DNA of 55,585 nt from assembly GCA_007693505.1 (NCBI GenBank), contig REDL01000076.1:1-55585 (forward strand), written 5' to 3'. The notes under the pieces are model-generated. The model had not been told where the DNA came from. It did no database searches and saw only the letters and a list, made by a program, of their open reading frames with translations. The translations under genes and the position numbers were made by a program. Positions within the stretch are counted from its first letter, which is position 1. The number at the start of each line of letters is the position of its first letter. Below are positions 33,414 to 51,984 of this stretch, piece by piece. Origin of the DNA: Desulfovibrionales bacterium. Its GTDB lineage: Bacteria; Desulfobacterota; Desulfovibrionia; Desulfovibrionales; Desulfonatronaceae.

Positions 33414-33423
33414 GGCTGCCAGC

Positions 33424-34548: not shown

Positions 34549-34618
34549 CTGAACCTCGTTCCCTGTTTCCGCAATCATTCTTGGTTTGGATAAAGGGGGC
34601 GGACCTGGAGAGCACTGC

Positions 34619-36586
34619 TCAGTAGGCCAGCCGCCCCAGGGATTTGAGAATCAACGTGCAGCCCATGGCCATCATTCCGGTGAGCCCCATGCCGCAGGAA
34701 AACCCGGCCAGGAGCACCGGGGCGTATTGCCGCCAGGACGCGCCGTACTTCTTGTAAAAATAGTACCGCCCCAGCAGCGCGCCGAACACCTCCAGGATGA
34801 TCCCGTGCGGCGTGCTCTGCCCCAGCCCGCGGACCACGCCATAGACCAGAAGAATGGGCAATCCCAGAACGGTCAAAATGGCGTAGATGATCAGCCCGAA
34901 CACCGCGCCGGCACCCACGATCACGAAGTTCAGGGCCTGAAAGAACAGCGAATCCCCCTCCAGGGTGGAGGTTTGCATCAGCAAGGTGTTCAGGGCCTGG
35001 AGATGCCAAAGTTCCTGGGCATAGGGATAGTTGGCCGAAGGGATGGGCGCCAATCGCCAGAGGAACTGGGAAAAAATCAGGGAGGCGATCATCACCACCG
35101 GGAAAACCACCAGCTCGGCCTTGATGATTCCCCGCAGGCTGGTGCCGGTCAGTTCGATCTGCCGGAACTGGACCGTGGCTTCGCCGTAATTGTGCATGGG
35201 GATGGGCGCGTACCAGATCTCGATACCCTGGTAACCGAAAAACCGGGCCCCGGCGATGAAGCTGGCCTCCCGGACCAGGGGCAAACTGACGAACTGCCCG
35301 GCCATACCCTCCATCCGCGCCGAGATATAGGAGATGATCGGCGTGTACACGAAGCCGTAAATGGCGAAAAAGATCCAGGGAAAGGTCGGCACCAACAGCA
35401 CGCAGAGCCAGATGTAGGCCAGGGTGGAAAAGACATAGATGCCGATGGAGATCCAGAAGTTGATGTCTCCGCGACCTTTGGGCGGATTGAACAGCACACT
35501 GAAATCCAGCTTCCCGTCACCGGCCTGCCGCAGGGACCGGACCACGGACCAGACCCCGATCACGGCAATGGCCAGACCCAGGCCGATACCAAAGCTCATG
35601 TAGAAGTCGAAGTTGTTGGCAAAGACCGTCTCCACCGTGGCCATGCCCGGATGCCAACGGTGCAGAATCCCGAAATTGTACAGGATGGGGTTGGCGACGA
35701 TGGTCACAAGCAGTCCAATGAGCCCGCCGATCACGGCCCAGAACGGCAGGACCATGCCCAGAAACACCAATCCCAGATCCAGTTGCAACCCGGTGGCCAC
35801 AGCCGGAAGCACGCCTTCCGTGTGCTGGGTCAGTTCAATCCAGGGAATGGGAATCAGGCGGATCTGCTCGGCCAGGAGCAGTCCGGAGAGCGCCGGCAGG
35901 AGCACATAGAGAAAGCCGAAAATGAGGCCAATCACCCCGCCGATGGAAAAAACCCGCCATTTCCAGCCGGTTTTGCGGTCCTCGGTGGACTCGGCCAAGG
36001 CCATGGTCCCCAGGGCTCCCACCGGGGCCATGGGGAAGGGCAGCTTCTCCACGTCCGAGGTAATCCGGTACAGGGCGTAGCCCAGGCCGAAGTGATCGAT
36101 GCGCTGAATGATCTGCGCGCCCACCAGCAGCAGAATCGGGATCAGCCAGTCCCGATGGAAGAAGGTCCGCTCCAAATAGGAAAGGGATTCCGGTTGCGGC
36201 GCGATCCAGGTGGGGATGAACTCCACCAGCCCGAGCATCTTGGCCGCGTCGGACTGGATCAGGTACTGGCTCCAGATCAATCCCTGAAACGGCGAGGCCA
36301 GGGCTGCCCCGGCCATGTAGTAGAGCAGAAAAACTTCCTGCTGTTTCAGTTCGGTATAAGCGCGTTTGGCAATTTCCGCGAACAGGATGATGGTCACCCA
36401 GCGGGCCGCCGGCCCGATGCCCTGCCCGATGACCAGCTGGAGATACATGGAGCCGGGCATCATCAAAAAACCGATGAAGATCGCGCCGACGATGGTCTTC
36501 CAGTCGAACCCCTCCTCAAAGTGTTTCGGGGGTTGCAGAAGATCGCGATATTCCTTGAGTTCCTTGTCTTCACGCATGGGCGTCAC
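34619..36586 (-). CDS. OPT-like polytopic membrane protein (second of pair)
   Basis: 655 residues with about 14-16 hydrophobic segments. A cytosolic N-terminus (KEYRDLLQPPKHFEEGFDWK) leads into helices with conserved phrases such as GLIWSQYLI, PFPMAPVGALG, and a long central hydrophilic loop (about residues 355-385). The arrangement resembles oligopeptide-transporter (OPT)-like proteins such as the DUF6784/DUF6785 group, and the neighbouring gene is of similar size and style. Substrate unknown. It starts 9 bases after that neighbour, so the two are likely obligate partners. Assignment to OPT is a resemblance, not proof. Confidence 0.65.
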   Translation of the reverse strand: MTPMREDKELKEYRDLLQPPKHFEEGFDWKTIVGAIFIGFLMMPGSMYLQLVIGQGIGPAARWVTIILFAEIAKRAYTELKQQEVFLLYYMAGAALASPFQGLIWSQYLIQSDAAKMLGLVEFIPTWIAPQPESLSYLERTFFHRDWLIPILLLVGAQIIQRIDHFGLGYALYRITSDVEKLPFPMAPVGALGTMALAESTEDRKTGWKWRVFSIGGVIGLIFGFLYVLLPALSGLLLAEQIRLIPIPWIELTQHTEGVLPAVATGLQLDLGLVFLGMVLPFWAVIGGLIGLLVTIVANPILYNFGILHRWHPGMATVETVFANNFDFYMSFGIGLGLAIAVIGVWSVVRSLRQAGDGKLDFSVLFNPPKGRGDINFWISIGIYVFSTLAYIWLCVLLVPTFPWIFFAIYGFVYTPIISYISARMEGMAGQFVSLPLVREASFIAGARFFGYQGIEIWYAPIPMHNYGEATVQFRQIELTGTSLRGIIKAELVVFPVVMIASLIFSQFLWRLAPIPSANYPYAQELWHLQALNTLLMQTSTLEGDSLFFQALNFVIVGAGAVFGLIIYAILTVLGLPILLVYGVVRGLGQSTPHGIILEVFGALLGRYYFYKKYGASWRQYAPVLLAGFSCGMGLTGMMAMGCTLILKSLGRLAY

Positions 36587-36595
36587 ACAGCCTGG

Positions 36596-38668
36596 CTAGA
36601 GGGGAAAGACGTTGTAGCCGGACCTGGCGAACATGCCCACCAGGGCCCAGATTCCGCCCATCAGAAAATCGCCGAGCACCAGACCGACGAATAAGAACCG
36701 CACCTTGTTGAACAGCCCGGTCCCGCCGTAACGCAGACAGAGATGATTGCAGAGCCAGCCCAGGAAAAAACAGAACCAGAGCATCTGCATCCCGGAGGTG
36801 TAGGCGGTCAGGTAGCCGATGGGATGCAGGGTCCACCAGGTCACCCGATAGTACATGAAGACCAGAAAGAGCATCACCAAAGCACCCACTCCACCGAAGG
36901 CGAGCACCCACGTGTTGGGTTCCGCGGGGACATCCAGCAGGCGCTGCACGTTTTCATAGGTGGCAATGGTCGAACTCGTGGCCCAGTCCATGTTCATGTC
37001 CCGCACCCCGTACTTGTAACTCAAGGCGAGCATGGTCACGAAGGACAGGGCCACGGCGACCATCAACGCCCCGGCGATAACCCCGAACCACAGCCTGTGG
37101 TTGCGCACATTCTCGGAAATCTTGGCCGAATGGAACAGCGTGGGCAGCAGCGATTCCCGAAGATTCAGGAAGAGCAATTTCTGCATCACCGCCGTGGCCA
37201 GCAATCCGACATGGCCCAGAAAACCGCTGCCAAAAGTTCCGATCAAACCGTCGCTGGGCGCGGCGGTCACGGTGAACAACGGCAGCCCGCCCTGAACAAT
37301 GATCCGGCTGGCCACGATCAGCACCAGAAAGAAGGCCATGGGCACGAGAACGGCCGCGATCATGGGCAGCCCGAAAAACCGGCACCACCAGACCAGGCAG
37401 GCACCACCCAGCAGCAGCCCCCATCCAGGCCAGGGTGAGGCCTCCCAGGCTTCGTGCCGTGGACGCTCCCGGTCCCGGTCCGCGGCACAGATCCCCTCAT
37501 CCGTGGCACCTGCTTGGCCTTGCGGACCTGCCTTCTGCGTCCAAAACCGCAACGGTTGAATCATTTCCCGAATCTGGCACCAGAGATGGGTTCTGGCCAG
37601 CCAGAGGATGAACAGGAAAAAAATCAGATACGCGCCGATGATCTGGGCTTCCTCCGGCCGGGCGAAATCCGCGCCAAAGGTCACACCCAGGGCGGCCTGG
37701 GGAATCTGCATGCCGGAAACATAGAGGATGCCGGTGACCAGGCCGGCCAGGAGGTAGAAGAACCAGAAGCTGAAGGAGATCTGGCGAGGAGCCAGAAACG
37801 CAAAAGCGATGAAGGCCGGGAAGATGTACATCCGCAGATTGTAGTACCCGGAAAACAGACCGTACTTGGGAAAGTACGACCCGGCCAGGATCAGCGTGGG
37901 GATCTCGGGGACATGTGGATAATAGAAATGCAGGCCGTTGAGCAGATGCAGGGAGGCGGCGCTGCAAAGACCGACCAGCAGGAATCGATCGCGAAAGAAT
38001 GTGCCCATGCCCCGGTTGTCCAGGGCCTCGCCCATCAACTGCGGCACGCGGAGCAGGGGGAAATTGATCCGCTCGTTGACCACCCACTGCTTGCTGAGCA
38101 GGGCCATCAGGCAATACATGACAAAAAAGCACAGCAGCACGAAAGCGCCCCAGGCCAGCAGCGGACCAATCCAAACGTCCCAGTGGATCCGCCCGAAGAC
38201 TTCCACCCAGGACATCTCCCAACCGCCGTCCAGGCCGTCGTAGATGGTCCGCACCGCCTCCATGCCCGCACCGCCGTCGTGGGCGTCCGGATACCAGGCC
38301 CGTGGCAGTAGGGGTTGCAGGGCCTCGGCCCAGCGGAACCCGTCTTCGGCAAAGTAGAACGGTGCGGTGATGTTCACGAAAAAGGTCTGGGCTAGTCCGG
38401 CATAGGATATGCCGGAGAAAATAACCATGAGCACCCAGGCCGTGAGGATTTCCAGACCGGAAAGCAGGCCTGCCCCCTTGCGCACCCAGCCGGTGAACGC
38501 CGAGAAGACGAACAGCCAGGCAGCGATAAAAAAGGGTGCCAGGGGGAAATGCCCACCACCCAGGGGAGGGTTATGCAGGTACGCGCTGTTGTAGGGAGTG
38601 AGCACGCACAGCACCAGCCCCAGGACGAACCCGAGCACCAGAGCCCTGGGACGGACGACTTGGTTCAT
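36596..38668 (-). CDS. OPT-like polytopic membrane protein, DUF6785-like (first of pair)
   Basis: 690 residues with about 14 hydrophobic segments. It opens with RALVLGFVLGLVLCVLTPYNSAYL, a phrase typical of DUF6785-family proteins, and has a late ASRIIVQGGLPLF motif typical of the same group and of OPT transporters. A charged linker at about residues 385-415 divides the protein. No function is established for the family. Its ATG overlaps the stop of the giant M28-like/FtsX gene as ATGA, tying it to that ABC-type complex. Confidence 0.7.
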   Translation of the reverse strand: MNQVVRPRALVLGFVLGLVLCVLTPYNSAYLHNPPLGGGHFPLAPFFIAAWLFVFSAFTGWVRKGAGLLSGLEILTAWVLMVIFSGISYAGLAQTFFVNITAPFYFAEDGFRWAEALQPLLPRAWYPDAHDGGAGMEAVRTIYDGLDGGWEMSWVEVFGRIHWDVWIGPLLAWGAFVLLCFFVMYCLMALLSKQWVVNERINFPLLRVPQLMGEALDNRGMGTFFRDRFLLVGLCSAASLHLLNGLHFYYPHVPEIPTLILAGSYFPKYGLFSGYYNLRMYIFPAFIAFAFLAPRQISFSFWFFYLLAGLVTGILYVSGMQIPQAALGVTFGADFARPEEAQIIGAYLIFFLFILWLARTHLWCQIREMIQPLRFWTQKAGPQGQAGATDEGICAADRDRERPRHEAWEASPWPGWGLLLGGACLVWWCRFFGLPMIAAVLVPMAFFLVLIVASRIIVQGGLPLFTVTAAPSDGLIGTFGSGFLGHVGLLATAVMQKLLFLNLRESLLPTLFHSAKISENVRNHRLWFGVIAGALMVAVALSFVTMLALSYKYGVRDMNMDWATSSTIATYENVQRLLDVPAEPNTWVLAFGGVGALVMLFLVFMYYRVTWWTLHPIGYLTAYTSGMQMLWFCFFLGWLCNHLCLRYGGTGLFNKVRFLFVGLVLGDFLMGGIWALVGMFARSGYNVFPL

Positions 38669-41600
38669 GCAGCACCGCCCTTGCCGACTCCTCGAGCGCT
38701 CTGGCCCAGTTCCTGATGAAACGCATCTTCGTAGCTTCCGCGCATGGATTCCTCCAAGGATCGCCAGACCAGCAATTGCTTGCGCAGTTCGTTCAGGAAA
38801 AGCTTGTTCTGATTCTGCCAGACCTTGTGTTCTCCGGCTTCACGGTCGATGCGCACCAGGATTTCCCGAAACCCGGCATAGACATCTGACGGTCGGAACA
38901 CCAACCGCACCGTCTGGCGGATGCCGAAATCGAAGGGGGCCAGCCAGACACGCAGGGTCATCATGTACTGTGGCGAATCCGCATGCTCCGTGGAGAAAAA
39001 GGGATCGTCCTGACGCACGGCTTCACAGGAGATGTTGTCCGTGGAAAAGGCACCGTGGGTAATGTCCTGGTGTGAACGGAAATATTCCATGAGAAATCCC
39101 CCGGCGCAGACCTGTTCTTCCAGCTTGATCAAAAACGGCAGCACCACTTCCAATCGATCGCCGTGGGCCTTGGGCATGGTCCAGGAGCGGTTCACGTCCG
39201 GGATGGCGATTTCCGCGGCCATCCGGGCCGGATACAGGGTTGAGACGAGCACCACCAGAATGACCAGGGCCATGGCCGCGACGCCGGCGGTGGAGGAATA
39301 GTTGGCGGTCATCCCGGCCCAAAGCGGTGTCCCGGCCAGAAATGCCGCCGCACCCTGGGCCAGAAGATAGCCGGACACGACGCTGATGACCGCCAAAGCC
39401 AGTGCCTCGGCCAGGAACAGAAACCCGACATGGGACGGTGCCAGGCCCACGGACGTGTACACGGCGATTTCCCGCTTGCGCTCATGGACACTGCCGATCA
39501 TGGTGTTCAGAACGATCAATGCGGCGATGAGCAGGGGAATCAAAATATTGGAAACACCTTGATAGCTCATGGCGTTGGCCGCGAAATAGACAAAGGTGCC
39601 TTCCGGCCCGCCCCGGAACAACATCAGTCCGAACCGTTCCCCGAGTTCGGAGGCCAGTTGGGCATCGGTCTCCCCATCCATGGCGGAAACGGCCAGGGCC
39701 TTGAGTCGACCGGCTCCCCCACCCATGGAGAGCAGGGTTTCAGAAGGGATGATCACGGTCTGGTCCCCGGCCACATGCTGATAGCGGCTCTGAAACAAGA
39801 GCACGTCCCGACCGGTTTCAATGGCCTCGGCCTCAACGGTGCTGACCACCCGGGCCGCCTCGCTGGGGTAGAACACCGGGGTGATGGGCTCGCCGTCCAG
39901 GTCCGGACGGCTGTCCAGCCCATCGTCGGCCATCACGCCCACAACCTCAAAGGGTTGCCCCCAGATGACCGCCGTTTGCCGCTCCGAGGATGTCAGATCC
40001 ACACCCAGTCTGCGGGCCATGCCTTGGGGCAGGATCACCGCGGCCCGCTCCCCTTCCCGGAACCAGCGCCCCTCTACCAGAATCTCATCCAGGCCGCTGA
40101 CCAGCGGCTCCGCATGGCTAAGTCCCACCAGACCCCGGGCCATGTCCGAGGCGGTTCCACGAGTCAATGGCACCATGGGCGCGGTGGTCATGTCCTCGGT
40201 AACGTACCAGGCCCGAGGCGTCACCACGCCGCGCCCCTCGAAAAAATTGCCCACGATGGTCAAAGCCTCCACGGGCATGTCCTGCCATCCCAGGTATTTC
40301 ATCATCGCCCCGGAGTAGGAAGCCTGGTCGCTGAATCGGGACCACCCTTCCTGACGAACGCTCTTCACCGCGGTGAAATTCATGATCGTGAACGTCAAAA
40401 TGGTCAGGGTGATGCAGGTCAGCAGGGTCCGTAGCGGTCGGCGGCGCAGGTTGCTGACACCAAGGATGAATGCCGCGGTGAATGCACCGGTTCGGCTGAT
40501 GTTCATGGTTTTCAAATGGCGTGAACGGCGCTGCATCTCCTCCACTTCCCGCTCGAAGCGGGAGATAATGATCATGGCCACCAGCAGCGAAAGGCCGAGA
40601 ATAAAAAAGGCCAGAATAACCACCATGGGGCTGTAGGTCAGCTGGAAGGCCGGATGCACGGCATAGACCGCGCCGATGATTGCCGCCAAAAAGCCGAAAA
40701 AGGCAATGATCCGTTTATGGATGTCCGTGAAGCCGAAAATCAGCCGTTCCATGCAAAAGGAAAACGGGATGAACAGGGCCACGTAAAACAGAACACCCAC
40801 CAGAACGTCGCGCTGAGTGCGGTCCACGTCATTGTAGACCTGCGAGGCAATGGCCAAGGCAGTACCGGCCTCGCGCTGGAAGGTGTCCCAGTGCAACGCA
40901 TCCCGGGCCTGGTCGGCATTCGCCAGGGACTGCATGCCCCGAATGTGCAGATCGCGGATCCGGTCGTTGACAATGCCCCGACTCTCCAAATTCTGGATCC
41001 GAGGCATGAGCAGGCTCCACATGTCACGGGCAGCCATGTATTCCGTTGTGGGAACGATGGGCCAATCTCCGATGCGGTAGCCAAGCCCCTGGGGGTGCTC
41101 CTCGTCGGCATTGAGCAGCACAACCTTGGTATCGATGAAATTATCCGAAAGGGTCAGCTTCAGAGGAACGTCGGTTTCCAGAAAAAACGTCCCCAGGGTG
41201 GAAGCCCGCGTATCCAGCCGACTGTACCAGTGCCGCAGGGGCTCGGCTTCATTGCGGGCATCGATCAGCCTGGGCACGTACAGGTAGTGGAAAGTGCGCG
41301 GCTCCAGCATGGAAAAAAAGGTGGACTGGCCGACATGGAACATGGTCAGATCCGTGGACACATCCCGGGTACGCATCCGGACGCGGTAGTTGTCCAGACC
41401 GGTACGGGCCTTGTCCACGGCGTGTACGGCCCGACCCGTCTCGGGATCAAAGGTGAATCCTTCCAGGATGGCCTTGTGCACGGTCTGGCGCCTGATCGCC
41501 AGGCCCTTGACGTGGAACTGACCGACCTGATCCACCATGGTCCAAAACCGGGCTGGCCCTTGAAAAACCAGAAAAACCCCGCCCACCGAGGGCTGGTCCG

Positions 41601-43713
41601 GAAACAGTTCCCCTTGGCGCAGCAGATTGACCCGGGCCGTCAGTTCGGCGAATCCGTTCTGCGGATCGGCCCTGGGGTCCGGGATGGGCTTATCCACCAG
41701 AGCCCGTACCAACCCGGAAACAACCTCGGCCTGCTTCTGAACGTACTCCAGGTGCATGTACTCCGGCAGGTCATAAGGCGTCCCCCAGTATACACGGGCA
41801 TCGTTGACCGTGGCCAGGGTGAATCCGGGCAGTGCGGCCAAAGCTACCGGTTCGCCGCCCATCACCGGACGATCAGGAAGCCAGCTTTGCCAGGATCGAA
41901 TCCTGCTGGGCCGCAACGTGTCGTGAAAAAGGGCGGAAAGGTCCTCGCCCTGGGAAGAGACTAGGCCCGCAGCTGTGGATCGAAGCAGCTCGTCGATGAC
42001 ATTGAACTGTCGGGTACGAACCACGGTGTCGAACAGCTCGAACAGCCATCCCTTGTCAAAAGCTCCAATCCCGTCGCCGCGACTGGAAAGATGCAGCGAT
42101 GCCGAAGCCACGATCCGCATATCCACCAGTTGCTCCCGCAGTTGATGCGAACTGCGGGCATGGTCCAACTGTTCCAGGGCGTCCAGGGCGATGGCCTGCT
42201 GCCGGGCCAGGGCCCGCTCCCGGAGGCGGAGCAGTTGTTCCCGCTCTTCATCGCTGATGGCCACGTCCAATCCTCTGGGTGCGCTGAGCCAGCGCAACCG
42301 TTTGAGGGTCAACCGCAGGGCGGCTGCCTCCCGAATGCGACGCTCCAGGTCCATATGAGAACCTGGTTCTGGACCCAGACCTGGCTCATCCGCGGTCTGA
42401 TCGTGACGCCGCAGTCGCAAGCGCATCAATTCGGTGCTCAATTCGTCAATCCGGTCTCGGACCACATCTTGGAACGCCTCACGCAACAGCTGAGCCTGAT
42501 CCGGGTCGGCCAAGACCGTGGGCACGAAGGGATCGCGTACATCCAAAAGTACAGCCGCCGCCTCGGAGTGTTCAGACCGCCGGGTCAAGGTGTCAATCAT
42601 CGACTCCAGCCTGTCGCCCCGTGTGGTCAAAGACCACACGAACTCCCGAACCCCGGCCACACCCTGGGCGTGGCCGCTGGTGGCCAACAGCAGGGTTGGC
42701 CGTTTCGGTGGTTCACGCCCCAGGGCTTCGGCCACAGTGAGCAACGTGGCAATGGACACGGATTCGTCGGCCCCCGGGGATCTGTCCGGCACATGGGATG
42801 TGGAATCGTAAAATGCCTGGACCACGGTCAGTTCCTCGGCCAGATCCGGATCGGTTCCCGGCAGAAGGCAGTAGATATTCTCCGTGGTCATGTTTTCCCA
42901 GCTGATCCGGGATGTCAGGCTGATGCGCGGCGCGGCGTGGGCATGGCGCAGCTTCTCCAGATCCCCAAAGATTTCCTCGGTTTCAGCCTGGGTCAACCAG
43001 AACCGTGGAAAGTCAATGGGTGTCTGCTCGATCTTGTCTTCGAAAAGATTTCGCGGAGCAGGGATCACTTCCGGTCCGGGATCAACATAGATCACGGCGG
43101 CGGCACCGAGTTTCGCGGCATGAATCCAGTGCTTGCCGGAATCCATGTCCATAAGCACCACGGCCCCTTCCACGGAAATATCGTTAAATTCCCTGTAGGT
43201 TCCTGTGCCGACATAGAGGACCGGGGCAGTGATTCCCGGAGGCTCGATCGCCGGGGCCGAGAGCATGTTCAGACGCAATGGCCGTAGCGAAAACGTCCTT
43301 TCACTTTCCAGCAACGTCAATGAACTCTCCTGAAGCTGCTGAACCGGAACGGCGAAAGACTGCCGCCCGATGATGCGATTCTCAGCCCTGGTTCGTTGGG
43401 CAAAGGCCTGTTCAATCGCGTCGGCAGCCAAAGAGTTGCCTGGACTGCCCACACCGCGATCGCCCAGATCGCTGAAAAAGGTGACCCAGTCCGTCACGGA
43501 ATGAAGATCAGACACGACATCGAGAATGGAAGCATCCGGAGAGGCCGGCAAAGCTCCCTTGGAGACGTTCCGATCCCCGGAAAGTGCATACTCGCCAGTG
43601 CCGGCCAGGCCGGCAACCGGAGCGGCCAGCAGTAAAATCGCGATCGCGACCATACGGCACAAATCCAAAACCCTGCCTGCCATGTTTTGCGGCAGGCCGC
43701 GTCGGATCATCAT
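38665..43713 (-). CDS. Giant fusion: degenerate M28 peptidase plus FtsX/MacB-type permease
   Basis: 1682 residues. In order: an N-terminal signal or anchor (19-38); a PA-like insert (about 160-262, GAVVLMDMDSGKHW); an M28 aminopeptidase-like core (about 295-420); a helical region (410-540); a large periplasmic part (550-965); membrane helices near 970-993, 1003-1020, 1029-1050 and 1096-1115; a MacB-like periplasmic domain (1117-1385); three FtsX helices (1389-1412, 1425-1452, 1473-1496); and a 170-residue cytosolic tail. The M28 site is broken: HxD is FYD (301-303) and the catalytic EE is HA (348-349), though D316 remains. It is probably a binding module fused to a mechanotransmission permease. 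The ATPase gene is 15 bases upstream. Confidence 0.88.
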   Translation of the reverse strand: MMIRRGLPQNMAGRVLDLCRMVAIAILLLAAPVAGLAGTGEYALSGDRNVSKGALPASPDASILDVVSDLHSVTDWVTFFSDLGDRGVGSPGNSLAADAIEQAFAQRTRAENRIIGRQSFAVPVQQLQESSLTLLESERTFSLRPLRLNMLSAPAIEPPGITAPVLYVGTGTYREFNDISVEGAVVLMDMDSGKHWIHAAKLGAAAVIYVDPGPEVIPAPRNLFEDKIEQTPIDFPRFWLTQAETEEIFGDLEKLRHAHAAPRISLTSRISWENMTTENIYCLLPGTDPDLAEELTVVQAFYDSTSHVPDRSPGADESVSIATLLTVAEALGREPPKRPTLLLATSGHAQGVAGVREFVWSLTTRGDRLESMIDTLTRRSEHSEAAAVLLDVRDPFVPTVLADPDQAQLLREAFQDVVRDRIDELSTELMRLRLRRHDQTADEPGLGPEPGSHMDLERRIREAAALRLTLKRLRWLSAPRGLDVAISDEEREQLLRLRERALARQQAIALDALEQLDHARSSHQLREQLVDMRIVASASLHLSSRGDGIGAFDKGWLFELFDTVVRTRQFNVIDELLRSTAAGLVSSQGEDLSALFHDTLRPSRIRSWQSWLPDRPVMGGEPVALAALPGFTLATVNDARVYWGTPYDLPEYMHLEYVQKQAEVVSGLVRALVDKPIPDPRADPQNGFAELTARVNLLRQGELFPDQPSVGGVFLVFQGPARFWTMVDQVGQFHVKGLAIRRQTVHKAILEGFTFDPETGRAVHAVDKARTGLDNYRVRMRTRDVSTDLTMFHVGQSTFFSMLEPRTFHYLYVPRLIDARNEAEPLRHWYSRLDTRASTLGTFFLETDVPLKLTLSDNFIDTKVVLLNADEEHPQGLGYRIGDWPIVPTTEYMAARDMWSLLMPRIQNLESRGIVNDRIRDLHIRGMQSLANADQARDALHWDTFQREAGTALAIASQVYNDVDRTQRDVLVGVLFYVALFIPFSFCMERLIFGFTDIHKRIIAFFGFLAAIIGAVYAVHPAFQLTYSPMVVILAFFILGLSLLVAMIIISRFEREVEEMQRRSRHLKTMNISRTGAFTAAFILGVSNLRRRPLRTLLTCITLTILTFTIMNFTAVKSVRQEGWSRFSDQASYSGAMMKYLGWQDMPVEALTIVGNFFEGRGVVTPRAWYVTEDMTTAPMVPLTRGTASDMARGLVGLSHAEPLVSGLDEILVEGRWFREGERAAVILPQGMARRLGVDLTSSERQTAVIWGQPFEVVGVMADDGLDSRPDLDGEPITPVFYPSEAARVVSTVEAEAIETGRDVLLFQSRYQHVAGDQTVIIPSETLLSMGGGAGRLKALAVSAMDGETDAQLASELGERFGLMLFRGGPEGTFVYFAANAMSYQGVSNILIPLLIAALIVLNTMIGSVHERKREIAVYTSVGLAPSHVGFLFLAEALALAVISVVSGYLLAQGAAAFLAGTPLWAGMTANYSSTAGVAAMALVILVVLVSTLYPARMAAEIAIPDVNRSWTMPKAHGDRLEVVLPFLIKLEEQVCAGGFLMEYFRSHQDITHGAFSTDNISCEAVRQDDPFFSTEHADSPQYMMTLRVWLAPFDFGIRQTVRLVFRPSDVYAGFREILVRIDREAGEHKVWQNQNKLFLNELRKQLLVWRSLEESMRGSYEDAFHQELGQSARGVGKGGAA

Positions 43714-43728
43714 ATCACACCCGCCTGT

Positions 43729-44493
43729 TTATGCGGAGTGTTGGCTTTCAGGCGTTGCTTCGTCTTTGCCATGAATCGCCCCCACGGAAATCTTCAACTC
43801 TTCGCGTCGCTCGATCTTGTCCACCCGGCCATCCCGGATCCAGACCACCCTGTCGGAAACCGCGAGCATTTTGTGGTCATGTGTTGCGGAAATAATGGTC
43901 ACCCCCCGCTCCGAGCTGAGCATTTTCAACAATTCGATGATCTCCTCGCCAGTGACCAGGTCCAGGTTGCCCGTAGGCTCGTCGGCCAGAACAATGGCCG
44001 GATCATTGGCCAGGGACCGGGCAATGGCCACCCGCTGCTGCTGTCCTCCGGAGAGTTCCAGGGGCTTGTGCTGGAAGCGGTCCCCCAGGCCAACCAGCTT
44101 GAGCAGCTCGATGCCTTTTTCCGTGGATGCATCGCTGTTCATTCCGGCAAAGGTCATGGGCAGGGTCACGTTTTCCAGTGCGGTCATCACCGGAATGATA
44201 TTGAATGTCTGAAAAATATACCCAATTTTCCGATTGCGCAGCCAGGCCAGTTCGTAGGCATCCAGTTGGGAAATATCCACCTCGTCGATGAACACCTTGC
44301 CTTCGGATGGTTTGTCCAGGCCGCCGATCATGTTGAACAACGTGCTTTTTCCGGAGCCGGAAGGCCCCATGATGGAAATATACTCCCCAGCGAAGATTTC
44401 CAGGTCCACGCCCTTGAGGGCCTGAACGTCCACCTTGCCCATCCGAAACTGCTTGGTCACGGCAATGACCCGGACGATGGTGCGTTGCGTCAC
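43729..44493 (-). CDS. ABC transporter ATPase, LolD/MacB type
   Basis: About 254 residues: Walker A GPSGSGKST, Q-loop FQTFNII, signature LSGGQQQRVAIAR, Walker B AIVLADEPTG, and the D-loop NLD typical of the LolD/FtsE/MacB group. These ATPases drive FtsX-fold permeases that move lipoproteins or peptides, or transmit force across the membrane. Start: GTG 44493 has GGAG 6 bases upstream; GTG 44505 is the alternative. It is flanked by the short FtsX permease upstream and the giant FtsX fusion downstream, so it most likely serves a heterodimer of the two. Confidence 0.95.
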   Translation of the reverse strand: MTQRTIVRVIAVTKQFRMGKVDVQALKGVDLEIFAGEYISIMGPSGSGKSTLFNMIGGLDKPSEGKVFIDEVDISQLDAYELAWLRNRKIGYIFQTFNIIPVMTALENVTLPMTFAGMNSDASTEKGIELLKLVGLGDRFQHKPLELSGGQQQRVAIARSLANDPAIVLADEPTGNLDLVTGEEIIELLKMLSSERGVTIISATHDHKMLAVSDRVVWIRDGRVDKIERREELKISVGAIHGKDEATPESQHSA

Positions 44494-44524
44494 GATACTC
44501 TCCACATGCTCGTTGGCAATAAAA

Positions 44525-45235
44525 TCAATGCTCGGCCTTGAGGGCCAAGACCGGCCGCATCCGGGCCGCGATCCAGGCCGGGTAGAGCACGCCGACCAGG
44601 CTGAGCGTCACCCCCACGCCCATGGCGACCAACAGGGAAAAGCCGGTGGAGGTCCAGGGCAGGGCCGTCCAGACCTGAAAACCGAACCTGACGGTGCTCA
44701 CCAGCAGGGAAACAACAAGTCCGCACAGCGCCCCCAGAGCCGCTCCGGCCAGCCCCTGCATCCCGGCCTCCAGCATGAACAGGCGCAGAATCATGGAGTC
44801 CAGCGCCCCCAGGCATTTCATGATTCCAATTTCCCGGAACCGCTCGGTCACGGCCATGAGCTGGGCATTGACGATGCCCACGGCGCAGACCAGCAGGGAT
44901 AAAATGATGATCCAGCGCTCCTTCGGCGTCATGGCCACGGTCCCGGCTTGGGCGTCCACGTCGAAACCGGCCTGGGAAAGCCTGACCGCGGCCTCGTCGC
45001 CGCCGACGGCCATCAGCCCCTCGGCCACATCCAGGTTAACGAGAACAAAGCTCAAGAACGATGTGGCCAGGACCAGGCTGCCTACGGTGATCAATGATCG
45101 AAAAAAACGAACCTGCAGGTTTTTGACACTGATTTCCAATGACTTGCGCCAGGACAGAACCACCGCGCGCTGGATCGACGGTTCAGACCGGCCCTGAGGC
45201 CGACTCTGGATGGATTTCGGGGAGACGTCAGGCAT
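44525..45235 (-). CDS. Short FtsX-family permease
   Basis: 236 residues from ATG 45235, whose start overlaps the deacetylase stop by 8 bases. It has four helices in FtsX order (about 46-68, 108-126, 152-180, 198-222) and the coupling phrase TERFREIGIMKCLGA. The extracytoplasmic loop between helices 1 and 2 is only about 40 residues, against 200 or more in MacB or LolC. The partner fusion carries a full periplasmic domain and an extra peptidase-like module, so the complex would be strongly asymmetric. Confidence 0.85.
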   Translation of the reverse strand: MPDVSPKSIQSRPQGRSEPSIQRAVVLSWRKSLEISVKNLQVRFFRSLITVGSLVLATSFLSFVLVNLDVAEGLMAVGGDEAAVRLSQAGFDVDAQAGTVAMTPKERWIIILSLLVCAVGIVNAQLMAVTERFREIGIMKCLGALDSMILRLFMLEAGMQGLAGAALGALCGLVVSLLVSTVRFGFQVWTALPWTSTGFSLLVAMGVGVTLSLVGVLYPAWIAARMRPVLALKAEH

Positions 45236-46061
45236 GGCGACGAAGGGGGTGGAGGTGAATGTTTTCCTGAACCAACTCATCCAGCCCTGCCAGCCGGATT
45301 CGGGGTTCGGCGATCAACACCGAAAGCAGTGTGTCCAGGAATTCCAGGGCATGGCTGTTCATCCGCTGGTGGTGCAGCATCACCCCAAGCATTCCCTGGG
45401 CAATCCACCACTGAAATTCGGCATAAAAATCCGCCCAGGCCTGCCGGGTGGTTCCCCGTCGGGTGTGCAGATCACAATTCACCGGAACCTCGAACAAATC
45501 AAGAGGTTCCCGAAAAAAAACCTTGTCGTTCCGGGATACGGCAAGAAAACCTAACGATTGCAAAATGTAATCCATTGAACCGTCCATGCGGTTCCACGGC
45601 GGGGTGAAGGCCGGAAAAAAGGATGTCCCAAGAAAACGTTCCAGCCGTTGTTTGCCGCGCAACACATCAGCAGCTCTGGCTTCCAGGGAGCGGGCCGGGC
45701 CGAATTCGCTCTTGCGCCCATGCGGCTGATGGTTCACGTGTCTTCGGCCATGCTGGTGAAAACACCACCGTCCGCCTTTTGCCGTCTGAGACTGGACCGC
45801 CTGCCACCGCGACGCACTGAGCCAGGATGGAACCATGGCCAGGGCCAGAGGTGCGTCATGACGCCGGAAACACTCCAACATGGCAAACAGGTTCGCCGAG
45901 GGCACCCCCACATCATCGGCCCGGAACCACACCACCGGTTCGGCAACCACACTCGCGTCCAGGGCCTTGGCCAAGGCTTCCCGCAATGCCGCATGGAAAG
46001 AATGATTCGCCAGGAAGGCCGGATCGGACCACATGGCGCTGATCCTCACCCGCTTACCCAT
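45228..46061 (-). CDS. Polysaccharide deacetylase-like protein
   Basis: 277 residues from ATG 46061, which gives GGGG 8-9 bases upstream; ATG 46070 is possible. NodB-type landmarks: VVWFRADDVG (metal-binding Asp pair), then FHQHGRRHVNH (His residues of the second motif) and TPPWNRMD as a third motif, in a soluble protein without a signal peptide. Members remove N-acetyl groups from sugars; the lack of export signal suggests action on a cytosolic, perhaps lipid-linked glycan. It overlaps both neighbours. Confidence 0.82.
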   Translation of the reverse strand: MGKRVRISAMWSDPAFLANHSFHAALREALAKALDASVVAEPVVWFRADDVGVPSANLFAMLECFRRHDAPLALAMVPSWLSASRWQAVQSQTAKGGRWCFHQHGRRHVNHQPHGRKSEFGPARSLEARAADVLRGKQRLERFLGTSFFPAFTPPWNRMDGSMDYILQSLGFLAVSRNDKVFFREPLDLFEVPVNCDLHTRRGTTRQAWADFYAEFQWWIAQGMLGVMLHHQRMNSHALEFLDTLLSVLIAEPRIRLAGLDELVQENIHLHPLRRHA

Positions 46062-47304
46062 GATGGGCATCCCCGCAAAAGCATTCCAAAATCTTTCGAG
46101 TGGTCGCCGCACCGTCGAGGTTGATGCGAAACCCGCCATCCGAAGCCTCTGGAAAGTCCACAGTCAGCTTTCTTGCACTTGCGGCACCCAACGCCTCGCC
46201 CATGCGCACAGCCAGCTGCTCCGGTTTGAGGTCGTCCTTGCGGAGCACGGACAGCAGGCCAACGTGTTCCAGTCGCTCAGCGCGCATGGCCTGCTCCCGG
46301 TTCTGGCCATAGGGCCAGACCAGGCCGAAGGTTTTCGCGGCCAAAAGATTCATGGTCGTATTGTAACCGGCCATGGAAACCGAAAGATCCGCGGCAGACA
46401 GCCAATTTCCGAAATTCTCGGTAAACCGGTGCACATGCACCCGTTTCCGGCCTGCCGCCTGTTGGAATAGTTCCGTGAATTCAACCTCGGACAGGAATGG
46501 CCCGGTAAAAACCCAAAGGTGGTGCGGCCTGTCCGGCTGGAGCAGCACAGAGGCCTCCAGCACCGCCTCCAAAAGTTCCCGGCCCACGGCACCGCCGCCG
46601 ATACTGGCCACGATCATCTCGTCCCTCGACGCAAGCCCCAGAGAATGCCGCAGTCGCCCCCCTTGGGCTGCATCCACCGGCGCGACAACGTATCCCGTGT
46701 ACACGATCCGCGGAACAATGGCGTCCACGCTCGCAAATGTCTCCTCCAGTCGCACAAGGTAGGGGTCGGCATGGACCAACACCAGATCGAACAAGGTGTT
46801 CAGCTGGTGCACCACGCGCGCTTCGTATTTGGCTGGATCCCGCTTCTCCACCAGTATGTCCCGAACGCTGCACACCGTCCGGCACCGGCCCAACTCCCCG
46901 CGTCGTGACGCTTCGAGAACAGGAAGCAGTTCAAACCCGAACCGTTTGCGGCCAAACGGGAAGAGCTCGATCAAAAACAGGTCTGGCCGGGCTTCACGAA
47001 GGTGTTCCAGGAGGCGCTGGCGGCGCCTGGTCATCACGTCGTCCATGGACTGGGAGGGAGAAGCTGCCTGAGACACACCGGCCCTGGTAAGGGCGGATCG
47101 GGAGGTTTGCAGGGTCTGAAAGTCGGCGTCCATGCACAGCGGGGGCAGGGGAATGTGGCGAACATGCGGGGGGAGGGACACGGCCACGTGTTCCCCCCCG
47201 GTGATCAGGTCCACGTGGTGCGGAGCGAGGGCCGTGGCAATCTCCAGGCTTCGAAACAGGTGGCCCATGCCCAAAACGTGTTGGCTGTAAAAAACGACCC
47301 GCAC
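46054..47304 (-). CDS. MurG/GT28-like glycosyltransferase (paralogue 1)
   Basis: 416 residues starting at a GTG that shares one base with the phosphatase stop (TAGTG), with GGAGG 4 bases upstream. The N-terminal domain begins MRVVFYSQHVLGMGHLFRSLEIA, the acceptor-side GxGH signature of MurG-like transferases. The C-terminal domain has SIGGGAVG and VSMAGYNTTMNLLAAKTFGLVWP, where the nucleotide sugar binds. It resembles the gene at 50678-51883. It probably adds a sugar to a lipid-linked or cytosolic glycan. Confidence 0.82.
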   Translation of the reverse strand: MRVVFYSQHVLGMGHLFRSLEIATALAPHHVDLITGGEHVAVSLPPHVRHIPLPPLCMDADFQTLQTSRSALTRAGVSQAASPSQSMDDVMTRRRQRLLEHLREARPDLFLIELFPFGRKRFGFELLPVLEASRRGELGRCRTVCSVRDILVEKRDPAKYEARVVHQLNTLFDLVLVHADPYLVRLEETFASVDAIVPRIVYTGYVVAPVDAAQGGRLRHSLGLASRDEMIVASIGGGAVGRELLEAVLEASVLLQPDRPHHLWVFTGPFLSEVEFTELFQQAAGRKRVHVHRFTENFGNWLSAADLSVSMAGYNTTMNLLAAKTFGLVWPYGQNREQAMRAERLEHVGLLSVLRKDDLKPEQLAVRMGEALGAASARKLTVDFPEASDGGFRINLDGAATTRKILECFCGDAHHG

Positions 47305-48032
47305 TACACCTCCGCCAAAAGCGGCTGATTCATGGCCAGGATGTGCATCCCCTTTAGATTGCCGCGGGAATCAGCCCCAGCGACTGCATCGTGACAACCA
47401 TCCGTCATGCCCTCCACGGTGATGGAGTGCAGGGCCTCCGGGATCAACGGGTCGCCTTCTTCCGGCAAAAAACGCATTGCCAACAGGCGATAGAGCAAAC
47501 ACTTCAGCACCCCCCTGTGGGTCACCACCAGGACATGTTCCGACGGATAGCGCTCTGCAAGGCGGCGCAAGGCCCCAGAAGCCCTGCTCCAGACCTCCCA
47601 CCGGCTCTCTCCGCCTGGAGGGCGAAAGGCCCAGCCCAAGCCTTCCTGGCGGCGGACCTCCTCCCCGGATAATGCGCGCAGTTCTCGAATCCGACTTCCG
47701 GTCCAGTCACCCCAGTCCTGTTCGCCCAGGCCACGTACGCTGGAAACCGGCAGTTCCAGCAGACGGCCAAGAATTTCCGCGGTCTCCACAGCTCGCTCCA
47801 GATCGCTGCTGACGATCCTGGAGAGAGGCCCAAACCCGGCCCATCCTCCCTGATGACGACGCAACGCCTGGCCCCACCGCTGACAGCGCTCCCGACCCAG
47901 GCCCGAGAGACGGGTCTGGGTGCGGCCCTGAATGCGCTTTTCCTTGTTCCAGGTCGTGGGGGCGTGGCGCATCAGTGTAATGTGTCCCTTGGCGATGGAG
48001 ACGGTTTGGGACGATAGGCACATGGGAGTCAC
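47304..48032 (-). CDS. Histidine phosphatase family protein
   Basis: 242 residues from GTG 48032 (AGGAG 4 bases upstream); an ATG at 48068 lacks a ribosome binding site. The catalytic LMRHAPTTWN is followed by the RIQGRTQTRLSGLGR block, the acid residue in GEQDWGDWTG and the second His in VVTHRGVL. Phosphoglycerate mutase-like phosphatases in glycan operons often act on sugar phosphates or intermediates, for example in GDP-sugar supply. The substrate is not readable. Gap of 145 bases from the upstream gene. Confidence 0.88.
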   Translation of the reverse strand: MTPMCLSSQTVSIAKGHITLMRHAPTTWNKEKRIQGRTQTRLSGLGRERCQRWGQALRRHQGGWAGFGPLSRIVSSDLERAVETAEILGRLLELPVSSVRGLGEQDWGDWTGSRIRELRALSGEEVRRQEGLGWAFRPPGGESRWEVWSRASGALRRLAERYPSEHVLVVTHRGVLKCLLYRLLAMRFLPEEGDPLIPEALHSITVEGMTDGCHDAVAGADSRGNLKGMHILAMNQPLLAEV

Positions 48033-48177
48033 GCTGCTCCTGTATCGTTTTACACACCCCGCTGTCATCCATTACTTGTTGGTGCATGTATCAATGGAAA
48101 AGCAGGAAGAGCCCTGCAAGGTTGACCTGCCTCAGTCAACGCAGAATTGTGTCATAAACGCGGATTGCTCCCGACGC
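48033..48177 (-). promoter_or_regulatory. 145-base gap inside the long operon; possible internal promoter
   Basis: The largest break in the glycan gene run. It contains an inverted repeat GTTGAC-N8-GTCAAC (near 48121-48140) and a TTGACT box, but no clear -10 at the right distance. It could hold an internal promoter or operator for the downstream genes. Confidence 0.25.
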
Positions 48178-49329
48178 TCACCATCGAGCATTTTTTTTCG
48201 CATCCGTGCCCTGCGTTACAAGCTCCTGGAGCAGGCCTTCCATCACGGCGTAATTTCGCTCGATATCGTGTTCCATAGACACGAAGCGGACAGCATCCTG
48301 TCCCATTGACCTGCGCAGTTGCGGGTCGCGCATCAGGCGGGAACAGGCCTCGGCAAAAGCCGGCATGTTGAAAGGCGGGACCAGGTATCCAGTCTTCTCG
48401 TGCTGGATGACGTCCTTGGCTCCGGCATGGTTCGTGGCCACCACGGGGAGGCCGCAGGCCTGGGCCTCCAGGTAGACCATGCCCAGACCCTCATGAATGC
48501 CTGGAAAGGCAAAAACATCCCCGGCGCTGAACACGGACTTCAGGTCGTCCCGAGGCACCAAACCCAGAAAACGGACCCGCTCCGGCGCGATCTCCGTGGC
48601 CAGTCGCTCCAGCCCCTCTCGTCCCGGACCATCTCCAGCCACCACCAGCAGTGGATCGAGTCCTTGTCGCACCAGCTCGGCCACACACCGGATCACCCAC
48701 GCCACTCCGTCAACCTTGACGCCGGGTCGCAGCACGGCCGCGGTGACCAGCACCGGACGGCGCTCCTTGTCCCGGTCTCCCAGCCACTTTCCACGCAAGA
48801 CAACGCGGGCCTGAGGGAGAAACCCGAATCGTGCCGTGGGTATCCCTTGCCCCACGAAGGTCCGGCGCTCATCCGGGACCAGACCATGCAGCGCACCATG
48901 GTCCGACGGCTTGTTGGAAAAAATATGGTCTGCGGCCACCAATGCGCGTCTGTTCAGCAGATATCCAGGCAGGGTTTTGCATGTCCTTGCCCGCTTGGCC
49001 GCGTATGCCCCGGAAAAAAGACCGTAGCGTAAGCCACGGTTCTTGAGATACGGACCGATCAGGTCCGGAGCCTTGTAGTAACTGTGGTAGGTCAGGACGA
49101 TCTCGGCCCCGAACCGCCGGGCTTGGTGCCACGCCCGCTGCCGCGTCCACACTAGGCGTGGCCAGAGCCAGGGCTTCCAGAAAATCCACGTGCAGGGCAC
49201 GAAGGGACTGGTTTGGACCTGATGTCCGCGCCGCTCCAGGTAGTCCAGCAGATCCCGGGCAATGGTCACATCGCCGGACAGGCGGGGGTGATCCAACGGC
49301 TTGAAAGGCGTGTTCAAGAGGATACGCAT
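48178..49329 (-). CDS. Glycosyltransferase family 4 protein
   Basis: 383 residues from ATG 49329 (MRILLNTPFKPLDHPRLSGD), 17 bases after the stop of the preceding gene; upstream extension not supported. GT-B fold: acceptor domain with SGDVTIARDLLDYLERRGH, then the donor domain with LVVAGDGPGREGLE, RVRFLGLVPRDDLKSVFSAGDVFAFPGIHEGLG and the EAQACGLPVVATNHAG helix with the Glu that binds the donor ribose. Cytosolic or peripheral. The donor sugar is unknown. Confidence 0.93.
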   Translation of the reverse strand: MRILLNTPFKPLDHPRLSGDVTIARDLLDYLERRGHQVQTSPFVPCTWIFWKPWLWPRLVWTRQRAWHQARRFGAEIVLTYHSYYKAPDLIGPYLKNRGLRYGLFSGAYAAKRARTCKTLPGYLLNRRALVAADHIFSNKPSDHGALHGLVPDERRTFVGQGIPTARFGFLPQARVVLRGKWLGDRDKERRPVLVTAAVLRPGVKVDGVAWVIRCVAELVRQGLDPLLVVAGDGPGREGLERLATEIAPERVRFLGLVPRDDLKSVFSAGDVFAFPGIHEGLGMVYLEAQACGLPVVATNHAGAKDVIQHEKTGYLVPPFNMPAFAEACSRLMRDPQLRRSMGQDAVRFVSMEHDIERNYAVMEGLLQELVTQGTDAKKNARW

Positions 49330-49346
49330 GGCCGCACCCGCGGTGT

Positions 49347-50681
49347 TCAGGAAGCAGGCCCGGTGCCTCGCCGAGGACCGGCAAGTCCGGAGTCCCGCCA
49401 ATACACCTCGGCCAAGTGCTGCGTGAGCACCCTGTTGTCAAAAACCTCCTCCACCCGTTTTCTCCCTGCCGCGATAACCCGGCTGCGCAGATCCCGGTCC
49501 GTGAGCAGGCGCTCCATGTTCGCGGCCAGGGAAGCTGCATCATCGCATGGGGCCAAAAGCCCCGTCTGTCCGTGCCTCACCAGTTCCGGCAGTCCGGAAA
49601 TATTCGTAGCGGCCACGGGCACTCCCATGGCCAGGGCCTCGGCCACCACGTTGGGTATCCCATCCCGATCTCCATCCTCGGCCTCCCGGCAGCCCAAAAC
49701 GAACAGATCCGCCTTGCCGTAAAGTTTAACCACTTCCTCGTGGGTGATGGTCCCTGTCAGCCGGACCTGGTCCTGCAAACCCAGTTCCCGGATGAAAGCC
49801 TGGATCGGACGCCTGTCCGATCCACTGCCCACCAGGGTGTGGACAAAATCGATCCCCCTGTCCTGGAGCAGACGCAGGGCGCGCAACACAGTGGGTACCC
49901 CCTTCTTGCGCACCAGCCTGGCCACGGTCAGGATGTTGTATGGTGGGTGCACGACAATCCGGGGATCATGAAACGCGAACAGCGACAAATCAATGCCATG
50001 ATAGACCGTATGCATGGGTGGAAAAGCCGCGTCCTCCAATCTTTCCATCGTTCGGACCAGGGTTTCCAGATGCTCCCGGTTATATCGCGTACAGGTGATC
50101 ACGAAGCGGGCCTGACGCATTTTTGCCAGCAGCCGGCTGGGTTGCTGGGTGTAGATGTCCTTGGCATGGGCGGTAAAGCTGAAGGGCACCCCGGACATTC
50201 GCGCGGCATACAGGGCCACTGAAGTGGGAGTATGAGCGAAATGGGCGTGGATATGGCCGACAGGCTGGCCATTCCTGGCCAGATCACGCATCGCGGCGAC
50301 CATGCATCCGGCCTGAAGGAAATGCTTCAGCCAGGTGTGTTTCTTGGGTGCACCGGAGTATCGTTTGAGCAGCAACCGCACCCCGGCCCGCCAGATGGCC
50401 GGAGTCTCATGTAGCAGCCGGACATTGGCCCTGATCAGACTGGGGAGCCCCCAGAACAAACTTTCGGGAAGGTAGGTGACCCGGGCCGTGATCCGCTTGA
50501 CCGAGGCATGGCTGAAGGACTCCCTGGGCCTGCGCATGGAGAAGATATGGATGCGCAATCCCTGCTCTTCCAGGAGTTGGATCTCGTTGGAGATGAACGT
50601 CTCGGAAATCCGGGGATAGCCCTTGAGCACCATGGCCAGCACAGGTGCCGATGGGCTGTTGCCCGCTTGCGATGCATTCAC
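49347..50681 (-). CDS. Glycosyltransferase family 4 protein
   Basis: 444 residues from GTG 50681, chosen because it overlaps the upstream stop as GTGA and has GGGAG before it; the ATG at 50789 would overlap the neighbour by 112 bases. N-terminal phrase KGYPRISETFISNEI and HIHAHFAHTPTSVALYAARM are typical of colanic-acid-type GT4 enzymes. The C-terminal donor domain has VGSGSDRRPIQ, LYGKADLFVLGCREAEDGDRDGIPNVVAEALAMGVP. Likely adds a sugar to a surface glycan repeat. Confidence 0.93.
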   Translation of the reverse strand: MNASQAGNSPSAPVLAMVLKGYPRISETFISNEIQLLEEQGLRIHIFSMRRPRESFSHASVKRITARVTYLPESLFWGLPSLIRANVRLLHETPAIWRAGVRLLLKRYSGAPKKHTWLKHFLQAGCMVAAMRDLARNGQPVGHIHAHFAHTPTSVALYAARMSGVPFSFTAHAKDIYTQQPSRLLAKMRQARFVITCTRYNREHLETLVRTMERLEDAAFPPMHTVYHGIDLSLFAFHDPRIVVHPPYNILTVARLVRKKGVPTVLRALRLLQDRGIDFVHTLVGSGSDRRPIQAFIRELGLQDQVRLTGTITHEEVVKLYGKADLFVLGCREAEDGDRDGIPNVVAEALAMGVPVAATNISGLPELVRHGQTGLLAPCDDAASLAANMERLLTDRDLRSRVIAAGRKRVEEVFDNRVLTQHLAEVYWRDSGLAGPRRGTGPAS

Positions 50682-51883: not shown

Positions 51884-51934
51884 GTTCGTCTCCGGCAACG
51901 CCAAGTCGGCAGCCATGGATGAGGGCGCACCAAA

Positions 51935-51984
51935 CAACGGCGTCTCGTCGGTCTCATCACAACGGCGTCTCGTCGGTCTCATCG
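51935..51984. repeat. Two tandem copies of a 25-base repeat
   Basis: The unit CAACGGCGTCTCGTCGGTCT plus CATCA occurs at 51935-51959 and again at 51960-51984 with only the last base changed. It lies in the leader between the radical SAM gene and the MurG-like gene. Two identical copies of a unit not divisible by three indicate a recent duplication in non-coding DNA, supporting the start at 51883. Confidence 0.8.

Follow-up and report, generated by a model that had tools for sequence, protein, structure and literature searches.

MacB and LolCDE are built from an FtsX permease with a large periplasmic domain after its first transmembrane (TM) helix, a coupling helix and an ATPase of the LolD kind. 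The same elements recur in a locus within a window of 55,585 nucleotides, the whole stretch of Desulfovibrionales DNA analysed here. In this locus, however, the permease is prefixed by a dead peptidase and a middle domain, together about 960 residues, and by three extra TM helices, the partner permease has no large periplasmic domain, and OPT-like proteins are encoded in the conserved operon. Like this locus, the YbbAP-TesA system pairs a type VII ABC system with a hydrolase-fold periplasmic part. As two papers on such systems describe it (PMC12646458, PMC5985334), YbbP carries two permease units in a single polypeptide, and TesA is an active hydrolase that is not joined to it. Here, by contrast, the hydrolase fold is covalently attached, comes from another family and is dead. 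Its family appears to be that of the M28 zinc aminopeptidases (BSAP, 6hc6; 2ek8; AAP, 1amp), with which the fusion shares the fold and the bridging acid, and in the case of BSAP and 2ek8 also the PA insert, whereas a helical insert of about 165 residues and the loss of five of the six catalytic or ligand positions in all 92 sequences compared set it apart. Transferrin receptor and nicastrin are catalytically inactive relatives of M28 enzymes. They resemble the fusion in keeping the M28-PA fold without catalysis, but are a eukaryotic receptor or complex subunit with no ABC permease fusion. Among the carriers of the OPT family, members other than yellow stripe 1 (YS1) carry oligopeptides. YS1 itself imports iron-phytosiderophore as a homodimer and is placed in the OPT family by a reference title in the available text of PMC9691689.

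None of the described transporters compared with the locus accounts for it. The fusion has no ABC_tran match and the ATPase is encoded by a separate gene, which excludes MacAB-TolC, as MacB joins permease and ATPase in one polypeptide (available text of PMC5985334). As for a MacA-type adaptor, no homologue of the adaptor encoded in the window at 33424-34578 is found in the best 80 of 243 loci, where some recurrent neighbours are untyped. LolCDE proper is rejected as well: the fusion is unmatched by TIGR02212 at E ≤ 0.1, and the small FtsX permease scores 55 bits against 362. The locus is not a YbbAP either, with one FtsX unit in the fusion and one in a separate gene rather than two per polypeptide. 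The original prediction could match the fusion to no described transporter, and among open-licence titles and abstracts we likewise found none describing the fusion or its partners; in the available text of PMC12646458 and PMC5985334, words beginning with "peptidase" occur 0 times. Each part of the system is of a known superfamily, and it is the combination for which no description was found in the open-licence literature.

A peptidase-permease fusion in one open frame

An open reading frame of 1682 residues joining an M28-like part to an FtsX/MacB-type part had been proposed for the minus strand, and it is present as claimed (Table 1). The full-length fusion occurs in 20 of 297 genomes of the phylum, spread over 12 family-level groups. 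Matches at E ≤ 1e-10 are found in 43 of these genomes, extending over the fusion length in the 20 and confined to residues 1280-1525, the FtsX end, in the remaining 23. A scan of GTDB species genomes with the single fusion protein as query found no relative; with the alignment as query, it returned 243 relatives at tblastn E ≤ 1e-3. The best 80 of these 243, which were analysed as fusion loci, come from Desulfovibrionales, Desulfobacterales, Desulfobulbaceae, Syntrophobacterales and other organisms with deltaproteobacterial names, and one is labelled just "Proteobacteria". An open frame of at least 1450 codons is present in 78 of the 80; the other two, truncated below 1450 aa (L104 and L107), were excluded, and a locus with the fusion split over two ORFs (L131) was left out of one alignment. 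Because both halves share one frame free of inner stops in all 20 genomes of the phylum search (reaching the contig end in G135 and G213), and the same fusion recurs across many genomes, an assembly or frame artefact is ruled out.

Table 1. Features of the fusion locus; coordinates are positions in the window and residue numbers refer to the fusion.
Feature	Coordinates	Strand	Basis
P655, 655-aa polytopic membrane protein	34619..36586	-	profile
DUF6785-DUF6784 protein with predicted OPT fold	36596..38668	-	Pfam, model
Fusion of pseudo-M28 peptidase and FtsX/MacB-type permease, 1682 aa	38665..43713	-	Pfam, family profile, model
Conserved C-terminal domain, residues 1513-1682, cytoplasmic by inferred topology	38668..39177	-	entropy
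FtsX permease: TM1 1075-1118, MacB-like periplasmic domain 1119-1382, TM2-4 1383-1512	39178..40491	-	Pfam, profile, hydropathy
Three extra TM helices, residues 963-1056	40546..40827	-	hydropathy, entropy
Middle beta domain and helical segment, residues 681-962	40828..41673	-	model
M28 domain, last part, residues 531-680; LHLSS strand (S543), WGTPYD (G644)	41674..42123	-	model, alignment
Helical insert inside M28 fold, residues about 366-530	42124..42618	-	model secondary structure
M28 domain, first part, residues 76-365, with PA-type insert; F301, D316, H348, A349	42619..43488	-	model, alignment
LolD-like ABC ATPase	43729..44505	-	closest model LolD
Small FtsX permease with coupling-helix motif, without large periplasmic domain	44525..45280	-	Pfam, hydropathy
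Polysaccharide-deacetylase/DUF2334-like protein	45228..46139	-	two homologues; window copy itself without match
Two GT28-type and two GT4-type glycosyltransferases and histidine phosphatase, optional neighbours	46054..51982	-	Pfam

Pfam searches at E ≤ 0.01 across the 20 members detect FtsX in all 20, Peptidase_M28 in 16, MacB_PCD in 7 and PA in 3. The window copy is one of the four members without a Peptidase_M28 match and has a weak match to Nicastrin. A profile of the 20 homologues matches the solved chains 2ek8 (E 4e-16), 6hc6 (3e-13) and 1rtq (1e-4); the same profile also matches transferrin receptors and, over positions 1018-1207, MacB (5lil, E 7e-11).

Fold of the M28 domain

An AlphaFold2 model of residues 76-962, built with 78 sequences, has a pLDDT of 93.2 and a pTM of 0.92. 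Structure prediction had been named beforehand as a refuting test of the original prediction, and the M28 fold does appear. VIA-align superposes the model on BSAP with a Z-score of 26.3 (367 of 407 residues, 5.3 Å) and on the Aeromonas aminopeptidase 1amp with a Z-score of 26.2 (252 of 291 residues, 2.4 Å), the aligned rows covering only about positions 1-646 of the 76-962 model in its own residue numbering. The top Foldseek matches are M28 enzymes (2ek8, E 5e-17, TM-score by target 0.54), followed by transferrin receptor and glutamate carboxypeptidases; TM-scores by target reach 0.62 at most and are modest because the model is longer than the targets. By its predicted structure, the N-terminal half of the fusion belongs to the M28 peptidase fold. 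The domain had been expected to end near residue 420. The fold stands but this extent does not: in the model the domain continues to about residue 680, broken by the helical insert, which by entropy is the most variable part of the fusion. The PA-type insert proposed for this half is present in the model and is also recovered as a Pfam PA match at residues 162-247, below the cut-off.

Loss of the active site

The zinc-binding His had been read as Phe and the Glu-Glu pair as His-Ala, and both replacements are seen in the HMMER alignment, at F301 and H348-A349. The last His ligand is also lost there (G644 in WGTPYD against YHTPxD), and D316 aligns close to the bridging Asp, next to a gap of one residue. 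S543 stands at the position of the fifth ligand, which is an Asp; the order of strands in the model, not a residue alignment, puts it there. All six ligand or catalytic positions were assigned from what we take to be the sites of M28 enzymes. The comparison of homologues suggested together with these readings gives a uniform result: zinc ligands are kept in none of 92 distinct sequences (98 minus six duplicates between two sets), the canonical residue being absent at five of the six positions in all 92. The sixth, bridging position 316, is acidic in 90 (D in 89, E in 1). At the other five, the commonest residues are S543 (92), G644 (84), F301 (76), H348 (63) and A349 (50), and minority acids are limited to Asp at 349 in two sequences and Glu at 644 in one. 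The residues flanking the lost His—W643, T645, P646 and D648—are nearly invariant. Since no homologue keeps the zinc ligands, the window gene is not a single decayed copy of an active enzyme. Sequence comparison argues equally against an active M28 metallopeptidase anywhere in the family, as the two-zinc ligand set and the Glu base are replaced at five of the six positions throughout.

The six site columns have a mean entropy of 0.90, compared with 1.82 in the M28 core, and 237 of 20,000 random column sets were as low. Columns 301, 316, 543 and 644 are responsible for the low mean, while those of the former Glu pair, 348 and 349, have entropies of 1.72 and 1.84. An earlier version of this test (0 of 10,000) used columns that had been widened around the ligands after viewing, and the ligand-only value is the fair one. 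Because the site columns are on average more conserved than the core, the former active site looks repurposed rather than decayed, although structural roles of these columns would also yield some conservation.

Permease half and partner ATPase

Pfam FtsX matches residues 1392-1501 of the fusion with an E-value of 4e-11 (43.3 bits against a cut-off of 25.5), and in the window copy MacB_PCD matches residues 1185-1290 with 24 bits, its cut-off being 27. The MacB-like domain is flanked by TM1 and TM2 in the hydropathy profile. The three extra TM helices are conserved to about the same degree as those of the FtsX unit (entropy 0.85 and 0.67-0.78, respectively), and the C-terminal domain has no Pfam match at residues 1513-1682. 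The ATPase encoded next to the fusion keeps Walker A and LSGGQ in 70 sequences, the exceptions being T in place of S twice and M in place of L once. The small FtsX permease has 251 aa as listed, and its true start may lie further in; the E-I-G and K-C-L-G-A motifs of its coupling-helix segment are kept in 68 of 68 sequences. With FtsX over the cut-off, a MacB-like domain between TM1 and TM2 and a partner ATPase with kept Walker A and LSGGQ motifs, the system is assigned from sequence to the type VII (MacB/LolCDE/FtsEX) ABC superfamily. By analogy with LolCDE, the natural reading would be a heterodimeric permease on an ATPase dimer, with the stoichiometry presumed.

OPT-like partners

The model of the DUF6785 protein (pLDDT 87, pTM 0.89) follows barley YS1 over 552 of 600 residues with a Z-score of 23.3 at 4.0 Å, while the next fold reaches a Z-score of 5.1. 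Foldseek separates the two in the same way, with an E-value of 3.5e-7 for YS1 and 0.35 for the next match. The DUF6785 alignment comprises 52 of the 57 listed loci (L084, L086, L106, L116 and L130 were left out). According to the model, DUF6785 has the OPT fold. Its sequence gives a fainter signal: no Pfam OPT match is found among 53 members at E ≤ 10, a search in which HMMER filters drop most weak matches, and comparison with an OPT profile yields a weak score of 36.2, with shuffles reaching at most 30.6 and the TM part of the fusion 20.0. We found no open-licence paper bearing the name DUF6785.

P655 is about 70-83% identical to its full-length relatives. The window copy has no Pfam match, and none of 14 members has a Pfam OPT match. 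Compared by hhalign with a profile of ten OPT proteins of the phylum, P655 aligns over 421 columns with a score of 49.0 (prob 71.7); no block shuffle out of 40 reaches this score (maximum 27.9), the reversed controls score 15.4 and 17.9, and comparison with the TM part of the fusion gives 21.3. Extended to E 10, the search for the OPT family produced 45 sub-threshold rows, mostly obvious chance matches. Four are P655 proteins (in genomes G073, G277, G233 and G026), that of G073 being the best of the 45 at E 8e-4, and all four lie within profile positions 489-621, the profile's end. By these profile comparisons P655 is probably a remote OPT relative. A direct comparison of the DUF6785 and P655 profiles was negative (prob 0.3), and neither profile matched a solved chain at E ≤ 10; a short E-x-x-x-F-P stretch is common to the DUF6785, P655 and OPT consensus sequences. 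No P655 was found on the plasmids or in the viral contigs searched. Unlike members of the OPT family proper, DUF6785 and P655 have no Pfam OPT match and, across the 297 genomes, always occur together with the ABC system. Ten of these genomes have OPT genes over the cut-off; none is among the 20 with the fusion, a non-overlap expected by chance about half the time.

A conserved operon

The genes for the small FtsX, the ATPase, the fusion, DUF6785 and P655 follow one another head to tail at intergenic distances of 19, 15, -4 and 9 bases, the start of the DUF6785 gene overlapping the stop of the fusion by 4 bases. Among those of the best 80 of 243 loci that have enough flank, the ATPase gene is adjacent to the fusion in 69 of 70; the small FtsX is a neighbour in 52 of 54, DUF6785 in 59 of 63, and P655 likewise in 48 of 50. 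Across the 297 genomes of the phylum, the fusion, DUF6785 (over the cut-off) and P655 are found in exactly the same 20, and this holds where the genes lie apart (genomes G254, G295 and G106, and P655 in G073). Because the genomes are related, these co-occurrences are not independent events, though 12 families are involved. One genome without the system (G001) has a below-cut-off match to DUF6785 (E 6e-4), which we took as chance. The glycan-related genes upstream are less constant: at least three of the five glycosyltransferase and phosphatase genes are present in 24 of 39 loci, the deacetylase-like gene in 27 and the phosphatase in 26.

Possible functions

From the domain folds, the ligand loss and conservation, the operon, the ATPase motifs and the co-occurrence pattern we infer, tentatively and with somewhat less than even confidence, that these proteins form one ATP-driven complex in the inner membrane, of the type VII (mechanotransmission) ABC class. 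Its membrane pair would consist of the small FtsX and the FtsX unit of the fusion, on a LolD-like ATPase dimer. What was the M28 active-site pocket would now bind a peptide or peptide-like ligand, possibly metal-chelating or glycosylated, and ATP-driven movement of the ectodomain would take up or release this ligand. The ligand would be handed to, or received from, the DUF6785 and P655 proteins encoded just downstream, and these OPT-like carriers would take it across the inner membrane. Binding of a peptide or glycopeptide by the dead M28 domain and the passing on of a signal or substrate, as the original prediction proposed, is plausible, and the OPT-fold partners speak for it indirectly. Several observations weigh against the peptide-binding complex. 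The columns of the former Glu pair show no more conservation than the core, the two OPT-like partners are without a Pfam OPT match, their direct profile comparison is negative, and DUF6785 matches the OPT profile weakly. The genes for glycosyltransferases, a phosphatase and a deacetylase that lie upstream in many loci hint at a glycan as the ligand instead of a peptide, and by analogy non-catalytic M28-fold proteins can bind proteins instead of peptides, as does transferrin receptor with its non-catalytic M28 fold.

The occurrence, in many sulfate reducers and their relatives, of an ATP-driven envelope pump with a dead peptidase and OPT-like partners suggests an undescribed machine that binds and moves peptide-like molecules. 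We regard as fairly unlikely the fuller proposal of a hybrid machine, in which a type VII ABC mechanotransducer gates or loads a pair of OPT-like carriers and a dead M28 aminopeptidase serves as its built-in peptide receptor. If true, it would mean that ATP hydrolysis gates or loads carriers otherwise run on ion gradients, and the question arises of whether carriers with an OPT fold can be driven or gated by an ABC motor. The analysis also offers a fold and a testable substrate class for DUF6785 and for the Pfam-less P655, and brings to light a further pseudo-peptidase of bacteria, whose conservation spans 12 family-level groups.

A different and somewhat unlikely reading is an extractor similar to LolCDE or YbbAP, in which the ABC pair would pull a lipid-linked glycan, glycolipid or lipopeptide from the inner membrane and the M28 domain would act as periplasmic dock or carrier. 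The lipid-linked substrate would be made with the neighbouring glycosyltransferases, and transport of its building blocks, or of the lipid-linked product itself, across the membrane would fall to the OPT-like proteins. The glycosyltransferase, phosphatase and deacetylase-like genes do lie upstream in the same direction, but by the three-of-five measure they are missing in 15 of the 39 loci, whereas the ATPase and the small permease are nearly always present. The closest model of the ATPase is LolD, yet a separate LolCE over the curated cut-off is encoded elsewhere in the genome, and no LolA-like protein was found among the fusion neighbours scanned. A precedent is E. coli YbbAP-TesA, which combines a type VII system and a hydrolase of the periplasm and is proposed, in the available text of PMC12646458, to extract hydrophobic compounds.

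The constant presence of two OPT-like proteins alongside the fusion argues for solute movement and against a quite improbable alternative, signalling in the manner of FtsEX. Here the ABC part would transport nothing: ATP hydrolysis would reshape the dead peptidase and so activate or recruit a separate periplasmic enzyme, or, in a variant, the M28 domain would sense a peptide and report inward through the C-terminal domain. That type VII systems can work so is known from FtsEX-EnvC (available text of PMC12646458), and the conservation of a C-terminal domain without a Pfam match is consistent with such a role, but no hydrolase is near-constant at the loci, the deacetylase-like and phosphatase genes falling well short of it. 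Residual catalysis by the M28 domain, relying on the acid at the bridging position and on the His that takes the place of the general base, perhaps with another metal arrangement, is highly improbable: the acid at 316 is nearly constant, S543 is invariant and H348, the commonest residue at its position, aligns with a His of 2anp, titled a functional Glu151His aminopeptidase, but H348 is replaced in 29 of 92 sequences, and none of the 92 retains either His ligand, the second Glu or the acid of the LHLSS strand (with Asp at 349 in two). The peptide-binding complex with OPT-like carriers is the reading that we favour.

Other genes of the neighbourhood

Several further genes of the window flank the operon. 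Directly downstream of P655, on the minus strand, are an RND pump and its adaptor (30360-34578), homologues of which are absent from the 80 loci and a further 19. A radical SAM protein with a weak TPR-like C-terminus (51995-53236, minus strand) is encoded directly upstream of the glycosyltransferase genes; it has no homologue in the 80 loci, 39 of which reach 9.5 kb upstream. On the plus strand, 25944-28472 encodes an MsbA-like ABC exporter with a split ATPase domain. About 100 residues usually separate Walker A from LSGGQ, and in all 14 homologues of at least 750 aa found near the fusion elsewhere the distance is 360-387 residues, which points to an insert of some 250 residues. Proteins with STAS, HATPase_c_2 and cNMP-binding domains adjoin the MsbA-like gene (L063:21344-22978; window 24913-25317), a cluster resembling a partner-switch regulatory module.

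Further recurrent genes lie some 10-12 kb downstream of the fusion start in the relatives, for example at L057:14475-14942, L058:20971-21879 and L063:19252-19872. They include genes for proteins without a Pfam match, homologous to those at window 20965-21981 and 22254-22889. In addition, 24 loci encode a protein some 143 residues long, the one tested member of which is PqqD-like, PqqD being the fold of a peptide-recognition element in RiPP pathways.
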